Shown here: positions 4,474 to 56,228 of the stretch, piece by piece
How positions within the stretch are numbered: position 1 is the stretch's first letter
Layout of the letters: each line of letters starts with the position of its first letter
Source: an uncultured Rhodospirillaceae bacterium
Lineage (GTDB): Bacteria > Pseudomonadota > Alphaproteobacteria > Reyranellales > Reyranellaceae
DNA: 64,000 nt
Direction: 5' to 3'
Assembly (NCBI GenBank): GCA_945952105.1
Contig: CAMFGZ010000017.1
Coordinates: 62,001 to 126,000 of the forward strand
Notes under the pieces: generated by a model
Database searches by the model: none
Told to the model about the DNA's origin: nothing
Seen by the model: only the letters and a program-made list of their open reading frames with translations
Made by a program: the position numbers and the translations under genes

Positions 4474-5010
4474 ATGACAAACTCAATCGTTCGTTCGACG
4501 TTCAAGCCGCGGCGCGCCGCGGCCCTGGCGCTCACCGGAGTACTGCTGGCCGCCGGCATCGGCGGCGCAGTCGCCCAGACGGCCGTGGCGCCTCCCGCGC
4601 CGCCGGCTGCCGGTGTCGCGCCGCCGCCCCCGCCGCCTGCTCCCGTCGCCAGCCAGCCGCAGGCGGTGATGCTGATCACGCCCATGCCGATCGCCAAGTT
4701 GCAGCCATCCGACGTCGTCGCCGTTAAAGGCAGTGTTGCCGAGATCTACGGCAACAAGTTCGTTCTGGAGGATGACAGTGGCCGCATGCTGGTCGATCTC
4801 GGTCCCCGCGCTGACGACCGGGTCGTCGTGACCAAGGGCGAGCAGGTCTCGGTGCAGGGCCGCTTCGATCGCGGCTTCGTTGCAGCCCAGGTGCTGTCGC
4901 GCGCCGACGGACGCAGCGAGGCGTTCGGCCCGCCGATGGCGCCGCCGCCGCCGCGCGAAGCCGATCGCGGCCCCGGCCGCCGCCCGCCGCCGCCGCCGGC
5001 TCCGCGCTGA
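4474..5010 (+). CDS. Secreted OB-fold protein, YgiW/YdeI- or DUF5666-like, proline-rich
   Basis: Predicted periplasmic protein of 178 aa. The signal peptide (KPRRAAALALTGVLLAAGIGGAVAQ) is followed by a Pro/Ala-rich linker (about residues 36-62), then one compact beta-rich domain: VVAVKGSVAEIYGNKFVLE, GRMLVDLGPRA, GEQVSVQGRFDRG. This is the pattern of bacterial OB-fold (BOF/DUF5666) proteins. The C-terminus is again Pro-rich. I chose the ATG at 4474 because AGGAGG at 4460-4464 is well spaced for it; an ATG at 4468 is possible. In enterobacteria ygiW sits beside qseBC, and the divergent arrangement here with a QseBC-like pair fits that. Ligand unknown. Confidence 0.8.
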   Translation: MTNSIVRSTFKPRRAAALALTGVLLAAGIGGAVAQTAVAPPAPPAAGVAPPPPPPAPVASQPQAVMLITPMPIAKLQPSDVVAVKGSVAEIYGNKFVLEDDSGRMLVDLGPRADDRVVVTKGEQVSVQGRFDRGFVAAQVLSRADGRSEAFGPPMAPPPPREADRGPGRRPPPPPAPR

Positions 5011-49371: not shown

Positions 49372-49512
49372 CCACCACCCTGAGGAGCGCCGCGGAGCGG
49401 GGCGTCTCGAATGATGGGCAACAGGCGAGGTGCGCGTTCCCACCCCAGCGCGGAGGTTACTCCGCGCGACGAGACGCGGCCTGCGGCCGCTCCTTAGGGT
49501 GAGGTCGGTGGT
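49372..49512. repeat. Dispersed palindromic repeat, paired inverted copies (family 1)
   Basis: Left unit CCACCACCCTGAGGAGC..GGCGTCTCGAATGATGG; right unit is its degenerate reverse complement, ending CGCTCCTTAGGGTGAGGTCGG. An inner perfect hairpin GCGCGGAG/CTCCGCGC is at 49448-49467. Same family as 8539-8645. Between the VOC and AKR genes; no gene in this gap. Confidence 0.75.
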
Positions 49513-49521
49513 GGAAGATCA

Positions 49522-50487
49522 CTAGGTCTTCACCGGTCCCGGCAAATCGAGCCCCACCCCGCTCAGATGCCCGAAGGTCCGGTGCAGCCGCTCGATCACC
49601 GGGGCGGGCAGCGGCGGCCGCAGGATCGATTCGATGTTGGCCTTCACGTGCGCCCGGTTGCCGGTGCCGAACAGGATGACATCGGCGCCCTGCTCGTGGC
49701 GCGCGTAGCGATAGGCCGCATCGGTGATGCTCTCCGCGCCGCCCTCGGAGACGAGGAAGGCGAGGGGATCGCCGTCCGCGCTCCCCTGGGACAGCACCGA
49801 GGCGTCGAGCCGCCCGTCCTCGACCAGCTTCGCGAACACGGCGCGGCGGTAGGCGTCGTTGCTGAAGATGTTGCGCACCACGAACATCAGCAGCGTGCCG
49901 ATGCCGCGCCGCCGCGTGACCGGGAACACCTTGGTGCGCGCGCCCTGGTTCACCAGGCTGTAGGCCAGCATGATGACCTCCCACGGCGCCTCCTCGATCG
50001 CGCGGGAGAGCATCGCCTGCTCCGGATCGCGCGGCCCCGTCTCGGTGAGGCCGACATGGCGCACTTTGCCCTGCTCCTTCAGCCGCAGCAGCGCCGGCGC
50101 CAGCACGTCGCGATGATGCTCGTAGGAAGCGGGTCCGACTGCATGGAAATGGAAGACGTCGACATGGTCGAGCCCGAGCCGCTTCAGCGACGCCTCGACC
50201 CGCTGCGTCACCGTTTCCGCCGTGTCGTCGGTCTTGAACAACGCCTTGGTCGAGATCACGAGCTTGTCGCGGTCATAGGCTTTCACCGCCGCACCCACGA
50301 TCTCCTCGGTCCCGTAGACCTCGGCCGTGTCGAGGAAGTTCACCCCCAGATCGATCGCCGCCCGCGCGACGGCGACGCACTCCTCAAAGTTCGCCCCACG
50401 CCCCAGCCCGAGCCGGCTGTTACCGCCGCAGCCGAGCCCGGCGACGGAGACGGTGAGGCCGGTGTTTCCGAGGGGGATGTATTGCAT
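49522..50487 (-). CDS. Aldo/keto reductase
   Basis: NADPH-dependent aldo/keto reductase of 321 aa from the ATG at 50487 (preceded by a possible GTG). Start MQYIPLGNTGLTVSVAGLGC. Conserved barrel: ARAAIDLGVNFLDTAEVYGTEEIVG (active-site Asp and Tyr), DKLVISTKA (catalytic Lys), DHVDVFHFHAVGP (His). The C-terminal part has the cofactor segment DVILFGTGNRAHVKANIESI (F-G-T-G-N instead of the usual G-x-x). Its first 30 codons and promoter region are duplicated as a relic at 52264-52430, marking the left edge of the accessory island. Confidence 0.95.
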   Translation of the reverse strand: MQYIPLGNTGLTVSVAGLGCGGNSRLGLGRGANFEECVAVARAAIDLGVNFLDTAEVYGTEEIVGAAVKAYDRDKLVISTKALFKTDDTAETVTQRVEASLKRLGLDHVDVFHFHAVGPASYEHHRDVLAPALLRLKEQGKVRHVGLTETGPRDPEQAMLSRAIEEAPWEVIMLAYSLVNQGARTKVFPVTRRRGIGTLLMFVVRNIFSNDAYRRAVFAKLVEDGRLDASVLSQGSADGDPLAFLVSEGGAESITDAAYRYARHEQGADVILFGTGNRAHVKANIESILRPPLPAPVIERLHRTFGHLSGVGLDLPGPVKT

Positions 50488-50565
50488 CACGAGTTCCTGT
50501 GTGTCCTTGGTAGTGGATACTAGCCGTCGCGCCAGCGCGCTCTGGGCATTAACTCTGCGGATCGG

Positions 50566-51126
50566 TTAGCTTGCTGCAAGAGGAATCCGGCTAGCAGCGA
50601 AACCTAGGTCTAGGTGTCGGCCTCTTTTTCCAGAGTGCTGTTGTTTGAGAAAAAGTTCCCAAGCACAGCGCACGCTCGCCGCCAGATCGAAGGCGTCATA
50701 TTTCTCGCCGTCACTGATAATTGAGAGAGACTCACTATCAGTAAGGTTGCCGCCACCATATGGCGCGTACTCTCGCAGTTCTGTAAACGGCGTTGGCTGG
50801 CTAGGTCGAGAAATTGAATGGTGTTTGTGCGCATTCGCAATATCGCGGCAAAGGCGCATAACGGCACTCTGGGCAAAGAATCTATCGATATTGGTCGATT
50901 GCAGAGCGCCGGTATCGACCAGCCAATCTCTCAGATGAAAAGCGTTCTCGAAAAATGCATACAAGAAGTCGATCTTATCACTCGGCGCGGCATCGCGAAG
51001 GCGATCATGCCACCGGCACATCCGGCTAAACTGCGATTGCCAGCCACCAGTCATGTGCAAGCTCCAGCCCAACTCCGGACTTTTGCCTCGGTAACCTCTA
51101 GTCGTGATAGCGTTCGAGCTTGGCAT
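50566..51126 (-). CDS. Accessory-island gene A, HEPN-like (hypothetical)
   Basis: A 186-aa protein from the ATG at 51126 (an upstream TTG at 51174 could add 16 residues). Lower GC than flanks. Central segment FLYAFFENAFHLRDWLVDTGALQ followed by VMRLCRDIANAHKHHSIS. The pairing of an L-R-D-W helix with R-D-x-x-N-x-x-K-H is a recognisable pattern in uncharacterised HEPN-like helical proteins, where the R/H region is often the RNase site. The C-terminal helix CAWELFLKQQH fits a helical bundle. No catalytic function proven. Neighbouring gene B is on the same strand, 74 bp away. Confidence 0.5.
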   Translation of the reverse strand: MPSSNAITTRGYRGKSPELGWSLHMTGGWQSQFSRMCRWHDRLRDAAPSDKIDFLYAFFENAFHLRDWLVDTGALQSTNIDRFFAQSAVMRLCRDIANAHKHHSISRPSQPTPFTELREYAPYGGGNLTDSESLSIISDGEKYDAFDLAASVRCAWELFLKQQHSGKRGRHLDLGFAASRIPLAAS

Positions 51127-51200
51127 GGTTGAAGCTATATCACCGTCTAGTTGTAGAGGCGAAGAACAGTTCAAATACGTAGAGAAGCTAGGTTGACGGC

Positions 51201-52163
51201 CTACATTTGCGTGCCCATGCGCAATTTTCCATTAACCTCTTCGATGCGCCAGTATCTAACTCCAGTGCAGATGCCGGCAATGGGGTTATTTGGTTTGGTT
51301 AGCCCTTGTGTTTTGAAAAGCTGCTTCATGACATCAGAGGAAATGCGATCTGCTACTCGGATGCTCTTATTGACGGCATGCAACTGTGCGGTGTCGGCAC
51401 TGGCGTAGGCGAGATGCACCTTCTCGGGCAGCCGATATCCTGGAAGGATTTCTACTCCGCTATTAATTGCGGCTAGCTCATTCGCAAATGCGTCGACTAT
51501 GACAACAATTCTCCATCGGGCATCTAGAACGTCGCTGGCAAAAAGCTCCCTGAGACCGATTGCCCAGCCAATCTTCTCTTTTGGCTCTATGAGATTGCGA
51601 AACTCTGCTGCGTATTGGCCTTTGAACTTCACAAGCTTGGGAAATTTAAGTGCAAACTTTTCTGTGATGGCTACGCCCAGTACTGATACCTTGTCATCGC
51701 CGAGCAGGTGTTGACTCGAGTTCGTGTCAAGAGCGATGACGGCGTCGCACGCTTGAAAGATATGGCCCGGATTGATGCTGAAACTACCCGGAATGCCGGG
51801 GACCCAACTAAGCAGCTTGGGCTTTGTGCTCGTTGATTGCCTCTTGCGGAACGTTTCGATGTGATAGCGCAGTGGTCTGACGAAGCGGCCAAGGAAGTCT
51901 TGCGCGACAAGTTCCTTGTTTCCAAACATACCCAACGTTTGTGGTTCCTCGCCCAACCTGAATTCTGCAGTAAGTGCTGTCTCCACACCGTCATCGCGTA
52001 CGTCGATGCGGACGAATCTCGCCGGCCTCGGGAATTTCTGTATAGAAAGTGCATTGTCGGGCATGCGTGATGCCCAATTCGGATCAAGCTGTCGAAGGAG
52101 TTGTTTGTCATCTTTTTCGTTCTTTTTTCGACGCACTTGTCGCCCCTTGTTTGCTACCCGCAC
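51201..52163 (-). CDS. Accessory-island gene B, possible RNase H-fold protein
   Basis: A 320-aa protein, GTG start at 52163, in low-GC DNA. N-terminal 30 residues are basic (RVANKGRQVRRKKNEKDDKQ). Mid-to-C-terminal beta pattern ACDAVIALDTNSSQ (D146), VSVLGVAITE, ARWRIVVIVDAFANEL (D224) and YASADTAQLHAVNKSIRVADRISSDV (D257, D272) resembles the DUF3800/RNase H arrangement of spaced acidic residues on strands followed by an 'LQ..AD' helix. Family not firmly recognised. The fold assignment is inference. Upstream of gene A, same strand. Confidence 0.45.
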   Translation of the reverse strand: MRVANKGRQVRRKKNEKDDKQLLRQLDPNWASRMPDNALSIQKFPRPARFVRIDVRDDGVETALTAEFRLGEEPQTLGMFGNKELVAQDFLGRFVRPLRYHIETFRKRQSTSTKPKLLSWVPGIPGSFSINPGHIFQACDAVIALDTNSSQHLLGDDKVSVLGVAITEKFALKFPKLVKFKGQYAAEFRNLIEPKEKIGWAIGLRELFASDVLDARWRIVVIVDAFANELAAINSGVEILPGYRLPEKVHLAYASADTAQLHAVNKSIRVADRISSDVMKQLFKTQGLTKPNNPIAGICTGVRYWRIEEVNGKLRMGTQM

Positions 52164-52263
52164 TACATTGGATAGCCATACGTTCAGCAGTAAAGGTTAC
52201 GCTGAAGAAGATTGACCTGTAGGTGCTCCGCCCGATCGCGGGTAACTCGTCCGTAACGCACTG

Positions 52264-52430
52264 CTAACCCCTCCAAAGCCACCGCCCATCGCCCATGAAC
52301 GTCGGCCCACGCATTCGTCGGAACTCGCCCCGAGTTCGAGCCGGCTGTGCTGCTGGGGCCCGCGAAGCTGACGTTGGTGTTTCCGAGGGGGCGGTCCATG
52401 GGGGCTCCTGTCGGTTCTTACTAGCGGATA
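52264..52430 (-). pseudogene. Scar fused from aldo/keto reductase start and metallo-beta-lactamase end
   Basis: Within the 383-bp gap 52164-52546. From 52399 leftwards, minus-strand translation gives MDRPLGNTNVSFAG, a decayed copy of the aldo/keto reductase start (MQYIPLGNTGLTVSVAG), with exact DNA matches such as GGTGTTTCCGAGGGGG (52375-52390 versus 50461-50476). At 52264-52320 it switches to the 3' end of the metallo-beta-lactamase at 54590: two frames give RGPTFMGDG and ALEGLA, matching HGPTFKGDG and ALEGLA there, with TGAACGTCGGCCC shared. A frameshift separates the two halves, so it is non-coding. It marks the boundary between the two cassettes of the island. Confidence 0.75.
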
Positions 52431-52546
52431 TCGCCTGTCGCGTCCGCGTGGTCCTTCTTGATGGAACAGAAAAACTCAATCTCGCTTTGCGAGCGGCGTC
52501 CATTGATGGCAGATAAATAGGATCAAACAACTTACTGGGGAGTCGG

Positions 52547-53920
52547 ATGTCTGCTGAGGACTGGGTTGCAGATGTCAACTTTGTTCTGTCGGAATGCGTT
52601 CGATTTCAGCAAGAAGTAGACCGCATTGGGCTTTCAGCATGGCTCAAGAATGCATCACGAAGCGATGCAATGGCCCATTTGCCTCATCCCAGCGGCAAGG
52701 GGTCGCTTCTCTGTGGCATTGAGGCGATTAGGCGTCTTGAGCAGTTGTCGAATGTCGCAATCAGAAATAGCGACGCGCTGGGGACTTTGACCATCGACAG
52801 GGTCTACCAAGCGCTACGTACCCTTATCGTCCATCGCTTTATTCGCGATCAGCGACCTCTAAATGTGCAGCAAGTACAAAAGGCTCTGGCTGCCGCAGTC
52901 CGGGAGGCGAAGAGAGCGCGCTACGACGCAACCCACTTTATCCCTTGCCGGCTCGCTTCCACGTCCGAGCCCGATCAATTCAGCATCGGCCCGGTCGTCT
53001 TCCGCTCACGCGCGGCTTTCTTCGCGCGAATTCGGCCTCAAGTTGATGCACTTGCTGAACGCGGCAAGGCAACAGAGACAATTGAAACTAACGATTGGGT
53101 TCGTATTGAGAGTTATTATGGCGCATTCGACTGGATCGGCGAGGTAAGGATACGCAACTGCGATCCAGACATCTCGGAGGAGCGCGCCCGCCAAGCCGTC
53201 ACAGCGGCCATTGACATTCTTCAAGTGGTCTTCGGTGCTTCGTATACGGAAAGAATGGCAGTTGGAGGCCCGACGATGGCGAATGATCGCCGAGTCCACA
53301 TGCAATTGGGGCGCGACGATGAGTTGCAACTCTCTTGGTCGTGGCGAGCGACATCTCCTGTGGCTCTTCCGGATTTAAGGGACCTGCTAGCGAATTCCGA
53401 GGTGGCATTCCTGCTTGGAAGCGGGGGACAAGCGATCGAGGCGATAATAGATCCTGCTCTCGATAGGCCAATCTCTCGCCGACTTGTAGATGCTGCATCA
53501 TGGTATGGCCAAGCGGTGCGCGAAGAATTTGATGCGGCTCGCATCGTTAAAGCAGTCACCGCTCTAGAACGCTTACTGATGACTGAAGATGTTGCTGACA
53601 TTGCAAGTACGCTTAGCGCTCGAGGAGCTGCACTTGCTTGGCGTCCAACAAGCAGGTTTGATTTCGATGAATGGAAGGGTCGCCTAAAGAAAGCATATGG
53701 CCTTCGGTCGCAGCTAGTGCACGGTTCTCTCTCGCCATTTGATCAGGAAGTTCATCTTCGCTCTGATTGGTGCGTGTGGTTGAGCCAAGAAGTGCTTCGA
53801 GCCGCGTTTGGAGCGTGGAGAGCCGTCTCTGGACTTGATAGACGCGTCTTGGATTCAGATTTAAGCACTTGGTTTGGTCAGCTGGTGAAAAATGCCTCTC
53901 AAGGGAAGATGAATGAGTGA
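52547..53920 (+). CDS. Accessory-island gene C, Apea-like HEPN protein
   Basis: A 457-aa protein, ATG at 52547 with GGGGAG upstream. C-terminal domain (about 330-450) shows the ApeA-like HEPN arrangement: DAARIVKAVTALERLLMTED (long helix), SARGAALAWRP, and EWKGRLKKAYGLRSQLVHGS with R387-x4-H392, the HEPN ribonuclease motif. The N-terminal 330 residues are unknown, mixed alpha/beta. HEPN domains of this type occur in toxins and anti-phage abortive-infection proteins. Transcribed opposite to genes A, B and D. Lower GC than the chromosome. Confidence 0.6.
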   Translation: MSAEDWVADVNFVLSECVRFQQEVDRIGLSAWLKNASRSDAMAHLPHPSGKGSLLCGIEAIRRLEQLSNVAIRNSDALGTLTIDRVYQALRTLIVHRFIRDQRPLNVQQVQKALAAAVREAKRARYDATHFIPCRLASTSEPDQFSIGPVVFRSRAAFFARIRPQVDALAERGKATETIETNDWVRIESYYGAFDWIGEVRIRNCDPDISEERARQAVTAAIDILQVVFGASYTERMAVGGPTMANDRRVHMQLGRDDELQLSWSWRATSPVALPDLRDLLANSEVAFLLGSGGQAIEAIIDPALDRPISRRLVDAASWYGQAVREEFDAARIVKAVTALERLLMTEDVADIASTLSARGAALAWRPTSRFDFDEWKGRLKKAYGLRSQLVHGSLSPFDQEVHLRSDWCVWLSQEVLRAAFGAWRAVSGLDRRVLDSDLSTWFGQLVKNASQGKMNE

Positions 53921-53956: not shown

Positions 53957-54544
53957 TTAGAATTGCGCCTCGATTTCCAACTGCCACGTAGTGAAGATTT
54001 CAAAGACCAGGTCGGCGCGTCGTCTAACTATACCGAGGTTGATAAGCGACCACTCTTTCAGATGCTGCTCGCCCCTGATGCTGTCGGGGTAGCGGAAGAT
54101 GATTCCCTTAGGGTCGATTTCAGAGAAGTCCTTGATAGTGTCCGAGATCATCTGAATTTGATCATCTTTTGGAACCAAACTGATCTTCCGCGCCGCAGTG
54201 AGTGCGGCTTCCCAGTTATTTTCTAGGCTGTGGTTGGCCTGAAACTTGAGATTTGGGGCGTCTAGCAATTCTGAATATGCTGCTACAAGATATTTTATGA
54301 ACAACTCAATGCTGTGACGAAAGTTGTAACAAGCCGGGTAGACGAGTGTATCTACTGCGACGCCCATTTCTTGGTGATCAGCGGCAGCTAGAATTTTCTT
54401 CGTTGCGGCAAAGTATCCGTGAGCGTAGTCGAAAAGATCATACCGGCCACCATTGTCGCCAACGCATGCATTGAGTCCTGCAGCATTGAAATCCCCTCTG
54501 AAGAGACTGTTGCTGCGATACTTTGGGCCGAATTCTATCGCCAT
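53957..54544 (-). CDS. Accessory-island gene D, HEPN-like hypothetical protein
   Basis: A 195-aa protein, ATG at 54544. The segment TLVYPACYNFRHSIELFIKYLVAAY with NHSLENNWEAAL is a helical F-R-H-x-x-E-x-x-x-K-Y-L then H-S/D-L pattern found in HEPN/MNT-antitoxin-related helical proteins. N-terminus MAIEFGPKYRSNSLFRGDF is unlike any family I know. In low-GC DNA (one 60-bp line counted: 28/60 G+C). Convergent with gene C, 36-bp gap, and upstream of the truncated metallo-beta-lactamase. Confidence 0.5.
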   Translation of the reverse strand: MAIEFGPKYRSNSLFRGDFNAAGLNACVGDNGGRYDLFDYAHGYFAATKKILAAADHQEMGVAVDTLVYPACYNFRHSIELFIKYLVAAYSELLDAPNLKFQANHSLENNWEAALTAARKISLVPKDDQIQMISDTIKDFSEIDPKGIIFRYPDSIRGEQHLKEWSLINLGIVRRRADLVFEIFTTWQLEIEAQF

Positions 54545-54589: not shown

Positions 54590-54976
54590 TTACCGCCGAG
54601 AGTAGTAATCCGCCAACCCCTCTAACGCCCCAGCCCCATCGCCCTTGAACGTCGGCCCGTGCATCAGCGCGATCGTCGTCGGCCTCAGCGCGGCCAGCCG
54701 TCGTAACGTCGGCTCTGCCATCGGTGTCGGCGGCATGAACGGCAGGCGTTCGGCGACCGCGATGGCGGGGGCGACGATGTCGCTTTCGGTGATGGGATCG
54801 GCGGGGCCGGTCTGGGTGAAGAGGTCGCTGCTGAACAGCGTGCCGGTCGTCTCCTCGTAGATCAGGCCGGCGTCCCAGCTGTGCGGGACGTGCGGCGTGT
54901 CGAGCCAGCGGACCCGCTTGCCGCCGAGGTCGAGGACCTCGTTGTCCTTCAGCGCGCGCGGTGGGCGGTCGGGCCG
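54590..54976 (-). pseudogene. N-terminally truncated metallo-beta-lactamase fold gene
   Basis: Only the last about 128 codons of an MBL-fold protein remain: RPDRPPRALKDNEVLDLGG, WLDTPHVPHSWDAGLIYEE, LFSSDLFTQTGPADPITES, ALMHGPTFKGDGAGALEGLADYY. The usual N-terminal HxHxDH half (about 100 residues) is absent; a family 2 palindromic repeat starts at 54971 instead. The frame stays open through the repeat, and an ATG at 55096 could make a 168-aa chimera, but it would lack the metal-binding half. The last 25 codons are duplicated at 52264-52320. Right flank of the accessory island. Confidence 0.75.
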
Positions 54977-55043
54977 AGCGAAGCTCGGCCCGTTGAGCGG
55001 CAGGACATTGCCTTGGCAATGTCCGGGAGCGTCGAAGGAAGAG
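54971..55043. repeat. Dispersed palindromic repeat (family 2)
   Basis: Hairpin GGGCCGAGC/GCTCGGCCC (54971-54991), then TTGAGCGGCAGG, second stem GACATTGCC/GGCAATGTC and ATGTCCGGGAGCGTCGAAGG (to 55043). Same order and near-identical 3' part as 37719-37809. A further hairpin CCCCATT/AATGGGG is at 55091-55106. Confidence 0.75.
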
Positions 55044-55119
55044 GGATCACGCAGGCCTCTGACCCGTCCGTCGCGTATGACGCGACACCTCCCCATTTGA
55101 ATGGGGCGGAGAATGATTC

Positions 55120-56088
55120 CTACGGCAACGGCTGCCAGATCGTGCTGCGGACCTCGCCGAACTCGCGCGGCAGCTTGGTCCAGGTGTCGCCGCCGTCGGT
55201 CGAGCGGAAGAGCTGGCCGAGGTTCGAGCAGACGAAGATCAGCTTCGGGTTCGAGGGATGCGTCGCCACCGTCCACGGCGTCGAGTTGAGTTCGCCCGGC
55301 AGGTTGGCGTCCGTCCAGTGCGCGCCATGGTCGGTGCTGCGCAGCAGCCGGCCGGTCGAGCCCGGCGGGCCGTTGCCGTTGGTGAGGAACACCGTCTCGT
55401 CGCCGTCGGCGCGCGGCACGATGGTGCGGGTGTACTGCCAGGGCGAGTCGAGTTCCTGGAAGGCGAAGGTCTCGCCATTGTCGCGGCTGACGTTGAGGCC
55501 GCGATTGGTCGTGGCGTAAACGAGCTTCGATCCGTTGCGCACCACCGCGACGCCGTGGATGTCCTCGGAGTTGATGCCGTGGCCCACCTTCTTCCAGGTG
55601 CGGCCGCGATCGGTCGAGCGGTGCACGCCATCGATCTCGACGCCGGCCCACAGAGTGTCCTTGTCGACCGGATCGAAGAGGATCTGCGTCACGCGGGGCT
55701 TGCCCACGAAGATGCAGGCGTCGGCGAAGGAGCCTTGCGCGGGGGCGAAGCTCTTTCCGCCGTCGGTCGAGACGAAGATGTTGGCGGGCTGGGTCCCGAC
55801 CACGATGAGGTCGGGATCGTCCGGCGCCTGCGCCATCGCCCAGATGTCGTAGTCGTCGAGCACCGAGGGCAGGTGCGTCCATTTCTGGTCGCCCTCGTTC
55901 CAGCGGTAGAGGCCGGAGTCGGTGCCGGCCAGCACTTCGCCCGGCCGCTTCGGATGCGCCGACAGCGCCCAGACGCGCGCCTCGAGATAGAGGCCGGATT
56001 CGATGTAGGGCCGGATCCAGGTCTCGCCGTCGTCGCGGCTGAACCACACGGACATGCCGGCGGTGCCGACGCAGAGCAAGTTGGACAT
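55120..56088 (-). CDS. BNR-repeat / sialidase-like beta-propeller protein
   Basis: Beta-propeller of 322 aa from the ATG at 56088. BNR-type repeats S-x-D-x-G-x-x-W/F: SRDDGETW, STDGGKSF, STDRGRTW, SRDNGETF, STDHGAHW, STDGGDTW. Regularly spaced, no signal peptide. The sialidase catalytic triad cannot be identified, so the protein is better called an exo-alpha-sialidase-like or VPS10-like propeller than an active enzyme. Its end is close to the truncated MBL gene (143 bp including the repeat). Confidence 0.93.
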   Translation of the reverse strand: MSNLLCVGTAGMSVWFSRDDGETWIRPYIESGLYLEARVWALSAHPKRPGEVLAGTDSGLYRWNEGDQKWTHLPSVLDDYDIWAMAQAPDDPDLIVVGTQPANIFVSTDGGKSFAPAQGSFADACIFVGKPRVTQILFDPVDKDTLWAGVEIDGVHRSTDRGRTWKKVGHGINSEDIHGVAVVRNGSKLVYATTNRGLNVSRDNGETFAFQELDSPWQYTRTIVPRADGDETVFLTNGNGPPGSTGRLLRSTDHGAHWTDANLPGELNSTPWTVATHPSNPKLIFVCSNLGQLFRSTDGGDTWTKLPREFGEVRSTIWQPLP

Positions 56089-56228
56089 CGTTGCCTCCCG
56101 GGGATCCGTCTTCTTGGGGCGAGCATAGGGCGGATGCCGACCACCGGCCAACATCGGCAAGGTTGCCCGGTTCGCGCTGCGCGTACATGATCGATCCCTC
56201 GCTGCACGCTGGGGCGTGGGAGGATGCC

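Follow-up and report, generated by a model that had tools for sequence, protein, structure and literature searches.

Two gene cassettes in a Reyranellaceae genome are separated by a relic made from the ends of the two core genes that flank them. The relic is a scar of ~200 bases at positions 52447–52251 (minus strand) of the window, the whole 64,000-nucleotide stretch of contig CAMFGZ010000017.1 that was analyzed. It is a genuine junction of the 5' end of an aldo/keto reductase gene (AKR) with the 3' end of a metallo-β-lactamase-fold gene (MBL), and it divides cassette D,C from cassette B,A. Similar fossils in relatives suggest that the site between MBL and AKR grew by faulty recombination rather than by the action of a dedicated integration enzyme. 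The second cassette was probably added by homology-facilitated illegitimate recombination (HFIR), which used one homologous flank and one illegitimate joint.

The Locus and Its Flanking Genes

In minus orientation the locus runs from BNR (56160–55120) through an MBL remnant (54972–54590), gene D, gene C on the opposite strand, the scar, and genes B and A to AKR (50490–49522). AKR, downstream of the cassettes, is an intact core gene (49522–50490; PF00248, E = 4e-37) with orthologues in close relatives that are 93–94% identical. Its native upstream region (50491–50536, minus strand) aligns with the upstream regions of genomes G032 and G063 and with the scar. The outer core neighbor, a BNR/sortilin-like repeat gene (55120–56160, minus strand; PF15902, E = 5e-22), has orthologues adjoining MBL in relatives at 92–98%.

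The initial annotation took MBL as the right flank. The end of the gene is there, but only the 3' half survives (54590–54972, minus strand), corresponding to residues 108–234 of the intact protein, with the first ~108 codons missing. This core gene, upstream of the cassettes, matches PF19583 (ODP family beta lactamase) with E = 1.1e-10 for an intact relative's protein and 8.6e-4 for the window remnant. An interspersed palindromic repeat of ~140 nt with the perfect hairpin GGGCCGAGCTTCGCTCGGCCC replaces the MBL 5' half (54973–55110). Copies of this repeat at 80–83% are found in L033 and L035, downstream of AKR in G035 and G017. A second short repeat lies downstream of AKR in the window (49376–49445) and has 80–87% copies, on both strands, at several positions in L030, L031, L032, and L035.

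The Scar Is a Chimera of Two Core Genes

The scar consists of the AKR leader and the first ~39 AKR codons fused to the last ~20 MBL codons. The leader segment (52400–52447, minus strand) was placed by alignment to the G032 and G063 upstream regions; it carries a Shine-Dalgarno-like ACAGGAG and shows 0 indels against G032 over ~46 nt. With this leader, ~47 nt of native sequence ahead of the start codon, the AKR half extends to ~52447 and is longer than the initial annotation had it. The AKR coding segment (52309–52399, minus strand) comprises the start codon and the first ~39 codons with several small indels, and alignments place the end of the AKR half near codon 39 (~52306). The MBL segment (52251–52308, minus strand), delimited by alignment to relatives, is frameshifted. 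At the joint the two parents have in common an exact 3-nt overlap, GGG (52306–52308, minus strand), which sits in an imperfect TGCRYGGG.

A fusion of this kind had been proposed in the initial annotation, and both halves align far better than shuffled sequence. The AKR half gives local alignment scores of 50 against its own genome, 91 against G032, 81 against G063, 56 against G027, and 41 against G019, scores that none of 1000 dinucleotide shuffles reached with any of these five reference genomes (maximum ≤36). The MBL half scores 59–73 against three references, with shuffles at ≤37 and 0/1000 reaching the observed values. The 16-bp exact match reported earlier, GGTGTTTCCGAGGGGG, is found at 50461–50476 in AKR and at 52376–52391 in the scar. 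The MBL end matches at 90% over 30 nt without gaps (52285–52314 versus 54635–54664), at 83% over 53 nt with one gap when the scar is compared with the window's MBL, and at 82–83% over 63–65 nt in comparison with the MBL genes of G008, G027, and G017. This half also reaches ~12 nt further into the MBL tail of G008 and G027 than into the window's own MBL tail. The terminal MBL peptides that had been reported in the scar, GPTFMGDG and ALEGLA, are both present, but a deletion of 1 nt in the scar copy has put them in different frames. The diagnostic sites of the decayed AKR half divide into three for the close clade, one for the outgroup, and four that are gaps or neither. The scar has a GC content of 0.655, against 0.51–0.52 for each of the cassettes and 0.67 for the window as a whole.

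A Variable Site between Conserved Genes

Single contigs of close Reyranella relatives, and of G032 and G081, show the conserved order BNR-MBL-[variable]-AKR, and core gene order is kept on both sides of the site in relatives. The empty junction anticipated by the initial annotation exists in G081 (L095), where AKR lies directly beside MBL with a spacer of ~150 nt. Together with the many relatives that hold a single cassette (L034, L087, L092, L230, and others) and the two-insert locus L031 described below, this empty site bears out the earlier proposal that two cassettes occupy one MBL|AKR junction and are parted by an AKR-start/MBL-end relic.

Measured from the last aligned MBL base, MBL-AKR spacers range from 173 nt in the empty G081 site to 5993 nt in G032, with 509 nt in G017, 607 nt in G029 (where MBL is truncated), 644 nt in G027, 1465 nt in G034, 1843 nt in G025, 3408 nt in G062, 4132 nt in the window, 4400 nt in G031, and 4534 nt in G066. 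Spacer GC is 0.50–0.57, with the exception of G032 at 0.67. A tblastx comparison found no protein-coding sequence common to any two spacers.

The cargo that can be recognized in relatives is mostly defense. The G066 spacer carries a Lamassu system (LmuA, 7e-87; LmuB, 7e-169; ABC-3C CTD6 and MC2 matches), and that of G031 encodes an ImmA/IrrE protease with a partner that we take to be PIN-like from its PDC-S70 match. A RiboL-PSP HEPN protein is encoded in G025, a PD-T4-6-like kinase follows MBL in G035 (6e-32), and the G062 spacer contains a gene for a GHKL ATPase that weakly matches REase_II. The G027 spacer (L030:1250–1710) holds the relic of a SIR2-HerA system (HerA, 6e-44; SIR2, 9e-5), which has lost its interior to a deletion and retains ~40 codons at the start and ~95 at the end. 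Given the conserved flanks, the empty site, and the mutually unrelated, mostly defense cargo, the MBL|AKR site is a core-gene-flanked, mostly defense hotspot at which foreign cassettes are gained and swapped in Reyranella. One gene further upstream, G081 has an insert of ~6 kb with a DUF5677 protein between BNR and MBL (L095:3100–9350).

Cassette Genes of the Window

The four cassette genes are A (202 amino acids; 50566–51174, minus strand), B (320 amino acids; 51201–52163, minus strand), which precedes A in the same orientation at a distance of 26 nt, C (457 amino acids; 52547–53920, plus strand), and D (195 amino acids; 53957–54544, minus strand). All are open frames that match no known family in Pfam, PADLOC, PHROGs, or NCBIfam, the lone PHROG match being to D at E = 0.049, and these four resources recognize no defense system among them. 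Nor does any of the four have a strong relative among 64 other Reyranella genomes, in which gene A is absent and weak relatives of C (40%) and D (31–32%) lie at other places. Among the Reyranella relatives searched, none carries cassette D,C or cassette B,A by itself at the MBL|AKR site.

Gene A has one weak plasmid relative. Gene B has no relatives in the genus, on plasmids, or in viral contigs. Comparison of B and C with PDB sequences gave no convincing match, and the structure prediction for B (pLDDT 31) is useless as a model. The plasmid search returned no relatives of C. In two other Alphaproteobacteria, relatives of C at 27% identity lie between mutS and glnD (L167:892–2022; L168:898–2013), and these proteins and C have in common an LVHG motif near the C-terminus. 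Gene D matches the N-terminal part of a larger (~440-amino acid) hypothetical protein whose genes occur on 57 plasmids of Klebsiella, Yersinia, Providencia, and others; 38 of these plasmids are conjugative. Of two such relatives inspected, one lies in an antiviral gene cluster beside SIR2, ATP-binding/ATPase, Abi, and toxin-antitoxin genes and the other is beside an integron and IS26.

The site itself suggests that the cargo A–D may be defensive. Genes B and A might, in addition, be expressed from the AKR leader kept in the scar.

Displaced AKR Starts Recur in the Genus

The genus was searched with AKR 5' and MBL 3' DNA, and the loci recovered were then read. Three further displaced AKR starts were found, in G025, G015, and G082, each lying ahead of a complete AKR gene and sharing its orientation. 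In G025 an intact MBL is followed by ~440 nt of relic sequence, by an AKR 5' end of ~53 nt joined to MBL from about codon 95 to its end, and then by a HEPN gene and AKR. The arrangement is that of the window, with AKR5'|MBL3' between MBL and an intact AKR. Locus L031, from an independent relative, shows this order between two inserts. The G015 relic joins ~203 nt of AKR 5' end to a BNR fragment, which is followed by cargo and then AKR. In G082 the AKR leader and ~40 nt of the gene are joined to unrelated DNA, with AKR beyond; the cargo there includes an open frame that we read as an agmatinase-like gene. The G082 displaced start runs into sequence resembling a tRNA 3' end, GGTTCGATTCC... (L229, reverse complement of 4715–4870); ARAGORN called no tRNA at this joint.

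The order of these pieces constrains their origin. Deletion cannot place AKR5' and then MBL3' between the end of MBL and a complete AKR, and addition of DNA is therefore required. The overlap at the joint is GGG for the window scar; G025 has CGG and G015 has GC. At random AKR/MBL joints an overlap of at least 3 nt has a chance of 0.074 and one of at least 2 nt a chance of 0.199; for the three overlaps together chance is ~0.001, a rough figure in which parents are approximated by relatives and joints are placed by eye. The joints fall at different AKR positions, about +40, +53, +115, and +203 in the four genomes, and these differences argue against a site-specific enzyme. No integrase was recognized among cassette frames with Pfam, PADLOC, PHROGs, or NCBIfam.

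Two partial duplications of the AKR 3' end lie downstream of AKR, in G017 and G063 (L035:3234–3369; L245:1850–1924). They suggest that similar faulty joints have formed on the other side of the gene.

How a Second Cassette May Have Been Added

The HFIR account, which we consider probable, starts from a strain with one cassette (MBL-x-AKR). Such a strain would take up DNA from a related strain with a different cassette between the same flanking genes. One flank would recombine by ordinary homology, and the other end would form an illegitimate joint, helped by a few matching bases, with the core gene of the opposite flank. The resident cassette would thereby be kept and the incoming one placed next to it, and the displaced AKR start and MBL end would then decay. 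Either flank could have served as the homologous one: MBL as anchor, combined with an illegitimate joint within the donor AKR, would yield the same product as the converse, with AKR as anchor and the illegitimate joint within the donor MBL. Against this account stand the shortness of the 2–3-nt overlaps, the mixed diagnostic sites of the decayed window scar, the failure of A–D to match a defense family, and the lack, in the relatives searched, of a strain with either cassette of the window alone.

The DNA may have entered by transformation-like uptake. A ComEC homologue is present in 36 of 41 Reyranella genomes, the window's included, although ComEC alone does not show competence. A gene transfer agent was rejected as the vector: a search of 41 Reyranella genomes for the marker GTA_TIM found it in none, and the control was detected.

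The main alternative, possible for both the window and G025 but on balance unlikely, begins within one genome: MBL-cassette-AKR would be duplicated in tandem by way of a microhomology joint, AKR5'|MBL3', and homologous exchange with another strain would then replace one of the two cassettes. It would yield exactly the observed order with one illegitimate joint, and the halves of the G025 relic are similarly diverged (88% over 51 nt for the AKR piece and 92–93% for the second MBL piece). The MBL piece of that relic is nearest to G035, and an AU test did not reject the own-copy tree (p = 0.18). Against duplication, an extra replacement step is needed, no spacer holds two copies of one cassette, and a repeat search of the window found no long stretch of homology linking cassette D,C to cassette B,A, contrary to what a simple duplication would predict.

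The ancestry of the G015 relic also weighs against duplication. Its AKR piece is 97.5% identical to the AKR of G025 (4/204 differences and one gap) and 94.5% identical to its own AKR (10/200 and one gap). An AU test rejected the tree in which the relic is sister to its own copy (p = 0.025), with the caveats that the identity data had suggested this comparison beforehand and that the bootstrap of the test had not settled. The BNR partner in this scar is only ~75% conserved, so that the two halves look unequal in age. The initial annotation had regarded the locus as two independent insertions joined by tandem duplication or by recombination between related strains; it had not noticed the illegitimate 3-nt joint, the defense hotspot, or the truncation of MBL. 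The G015 ancestry and the lack of any cassette present twice favor the second of these, and plain tandem duplication is less likely than HFIR for the window.

Excision offers another route to the same order. A cassette may have left a donor as a circle in which AKR5' is joined to MBL3' and been re-integrated in a related strain by one homologous crossover, a scheme that also allows foreign ancestry for one cassette. We regard it as improbable: the illegitimate joint must first form in the donor, no recombinase or replication gene is recognized in any cassette, and no circle was observed.

Elements of the SXT type insert at prfC and supply a new start to the gene. A site-specific element acting in this way at the AKR 5' end would displace the old start, and displaced AKR 5' ends do lie upstream of an intact AKR in all four genomes. 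The differing joints lead into MBL, BNR, or unrelated DNA, and homology continues past any common core. These joints, together with the failure to recognize an integrase, led to rejection of insertion at the AKR start, which we hold to be very improbable. Least credible of all is an assembly chimera, for although the genome is a draft of 77 contigs, the scar lies inside a 127-kb contig, its sequence is decayed and unique, and analogous scars occur in independently assembled genomes.

Relation to Known Systems

HFIR-type growth and core-flanked defense hotspots have each been known or proposed separately. For type VI secretion (T6SS) effector-immunity arrays of Vibrio cholerae, HFIR was proposed as the means of module addition (Kirchberger et al. 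2017, PMC5361080). The Vibrio arrays and the Reyranella site are alike in that modules accumulate at a conserved locus with no integrase, older events are marked by displaced conserved remnants, and foreign origin is preferred over duplication. They differ in that the Vibrio remnants are parts of the cargo (effector ends and immunity genes), whereas in Reyranella the remnants come from the ends of two core genes and their joint can still be seen. The Reyranella cargo in relatives is antiviral defense, unlike the T6SS modules.

The cDHS1/2 hotspots of Pseudomonas aeruginosa (PMC10250203) resemble the Reyranella site in their fixed core flanks, variable antiphage-rich cargo, and lack of a single mobile element. 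Unlike them, the Reyranella sites are small (zero to two cassettes) and can be empty. As summarized in PMC6382021, HFIR has been described in Acinetobacter, Pseudomonas stutzeri, and Streptococcus (de Vries & Wackernagel 2002). In that summary, as in Reyranella, a short overlap at one joint is paired with conserved sequence that could serve as an anchor on the other side; those cases were seen in laboratory transformation, whereas ours is reconstructed from old genomic relics. Rhs orphan 3' ends, as cited in PMC5361080, are likewise displaced gene ends strung together next to a conserved gene. In that citation the orphans are variable tips of a cargo gene, whereas the Reyranella relics are ends of core enzymes that have no part in the cargo.

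What is new is a readable, recurrent chimeric relic of the flanking core genes at a mostly defense hotspot. In the open-access literature we found no paper that joins core-flanked defense hotspots with HFIR-type growth. As a tentative and rather doubtful generalization, hotspots of this kind might commonly grow by HFIR, in which case reversed-order chimeras of the flanks could form a fossil record of each addition.

How core defense hotspots are built, several systems deep and without an integrase, has been named as future work (PMC10250203). The Reyranella scars bear on how such core-flanked loci are built. In the window, location marks the family-less genes A–D as candidate antiviral genes. 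A scar with readable parents and a readable joint, recurring in relatives, makes the question of integrase-free growth by several systems testable.
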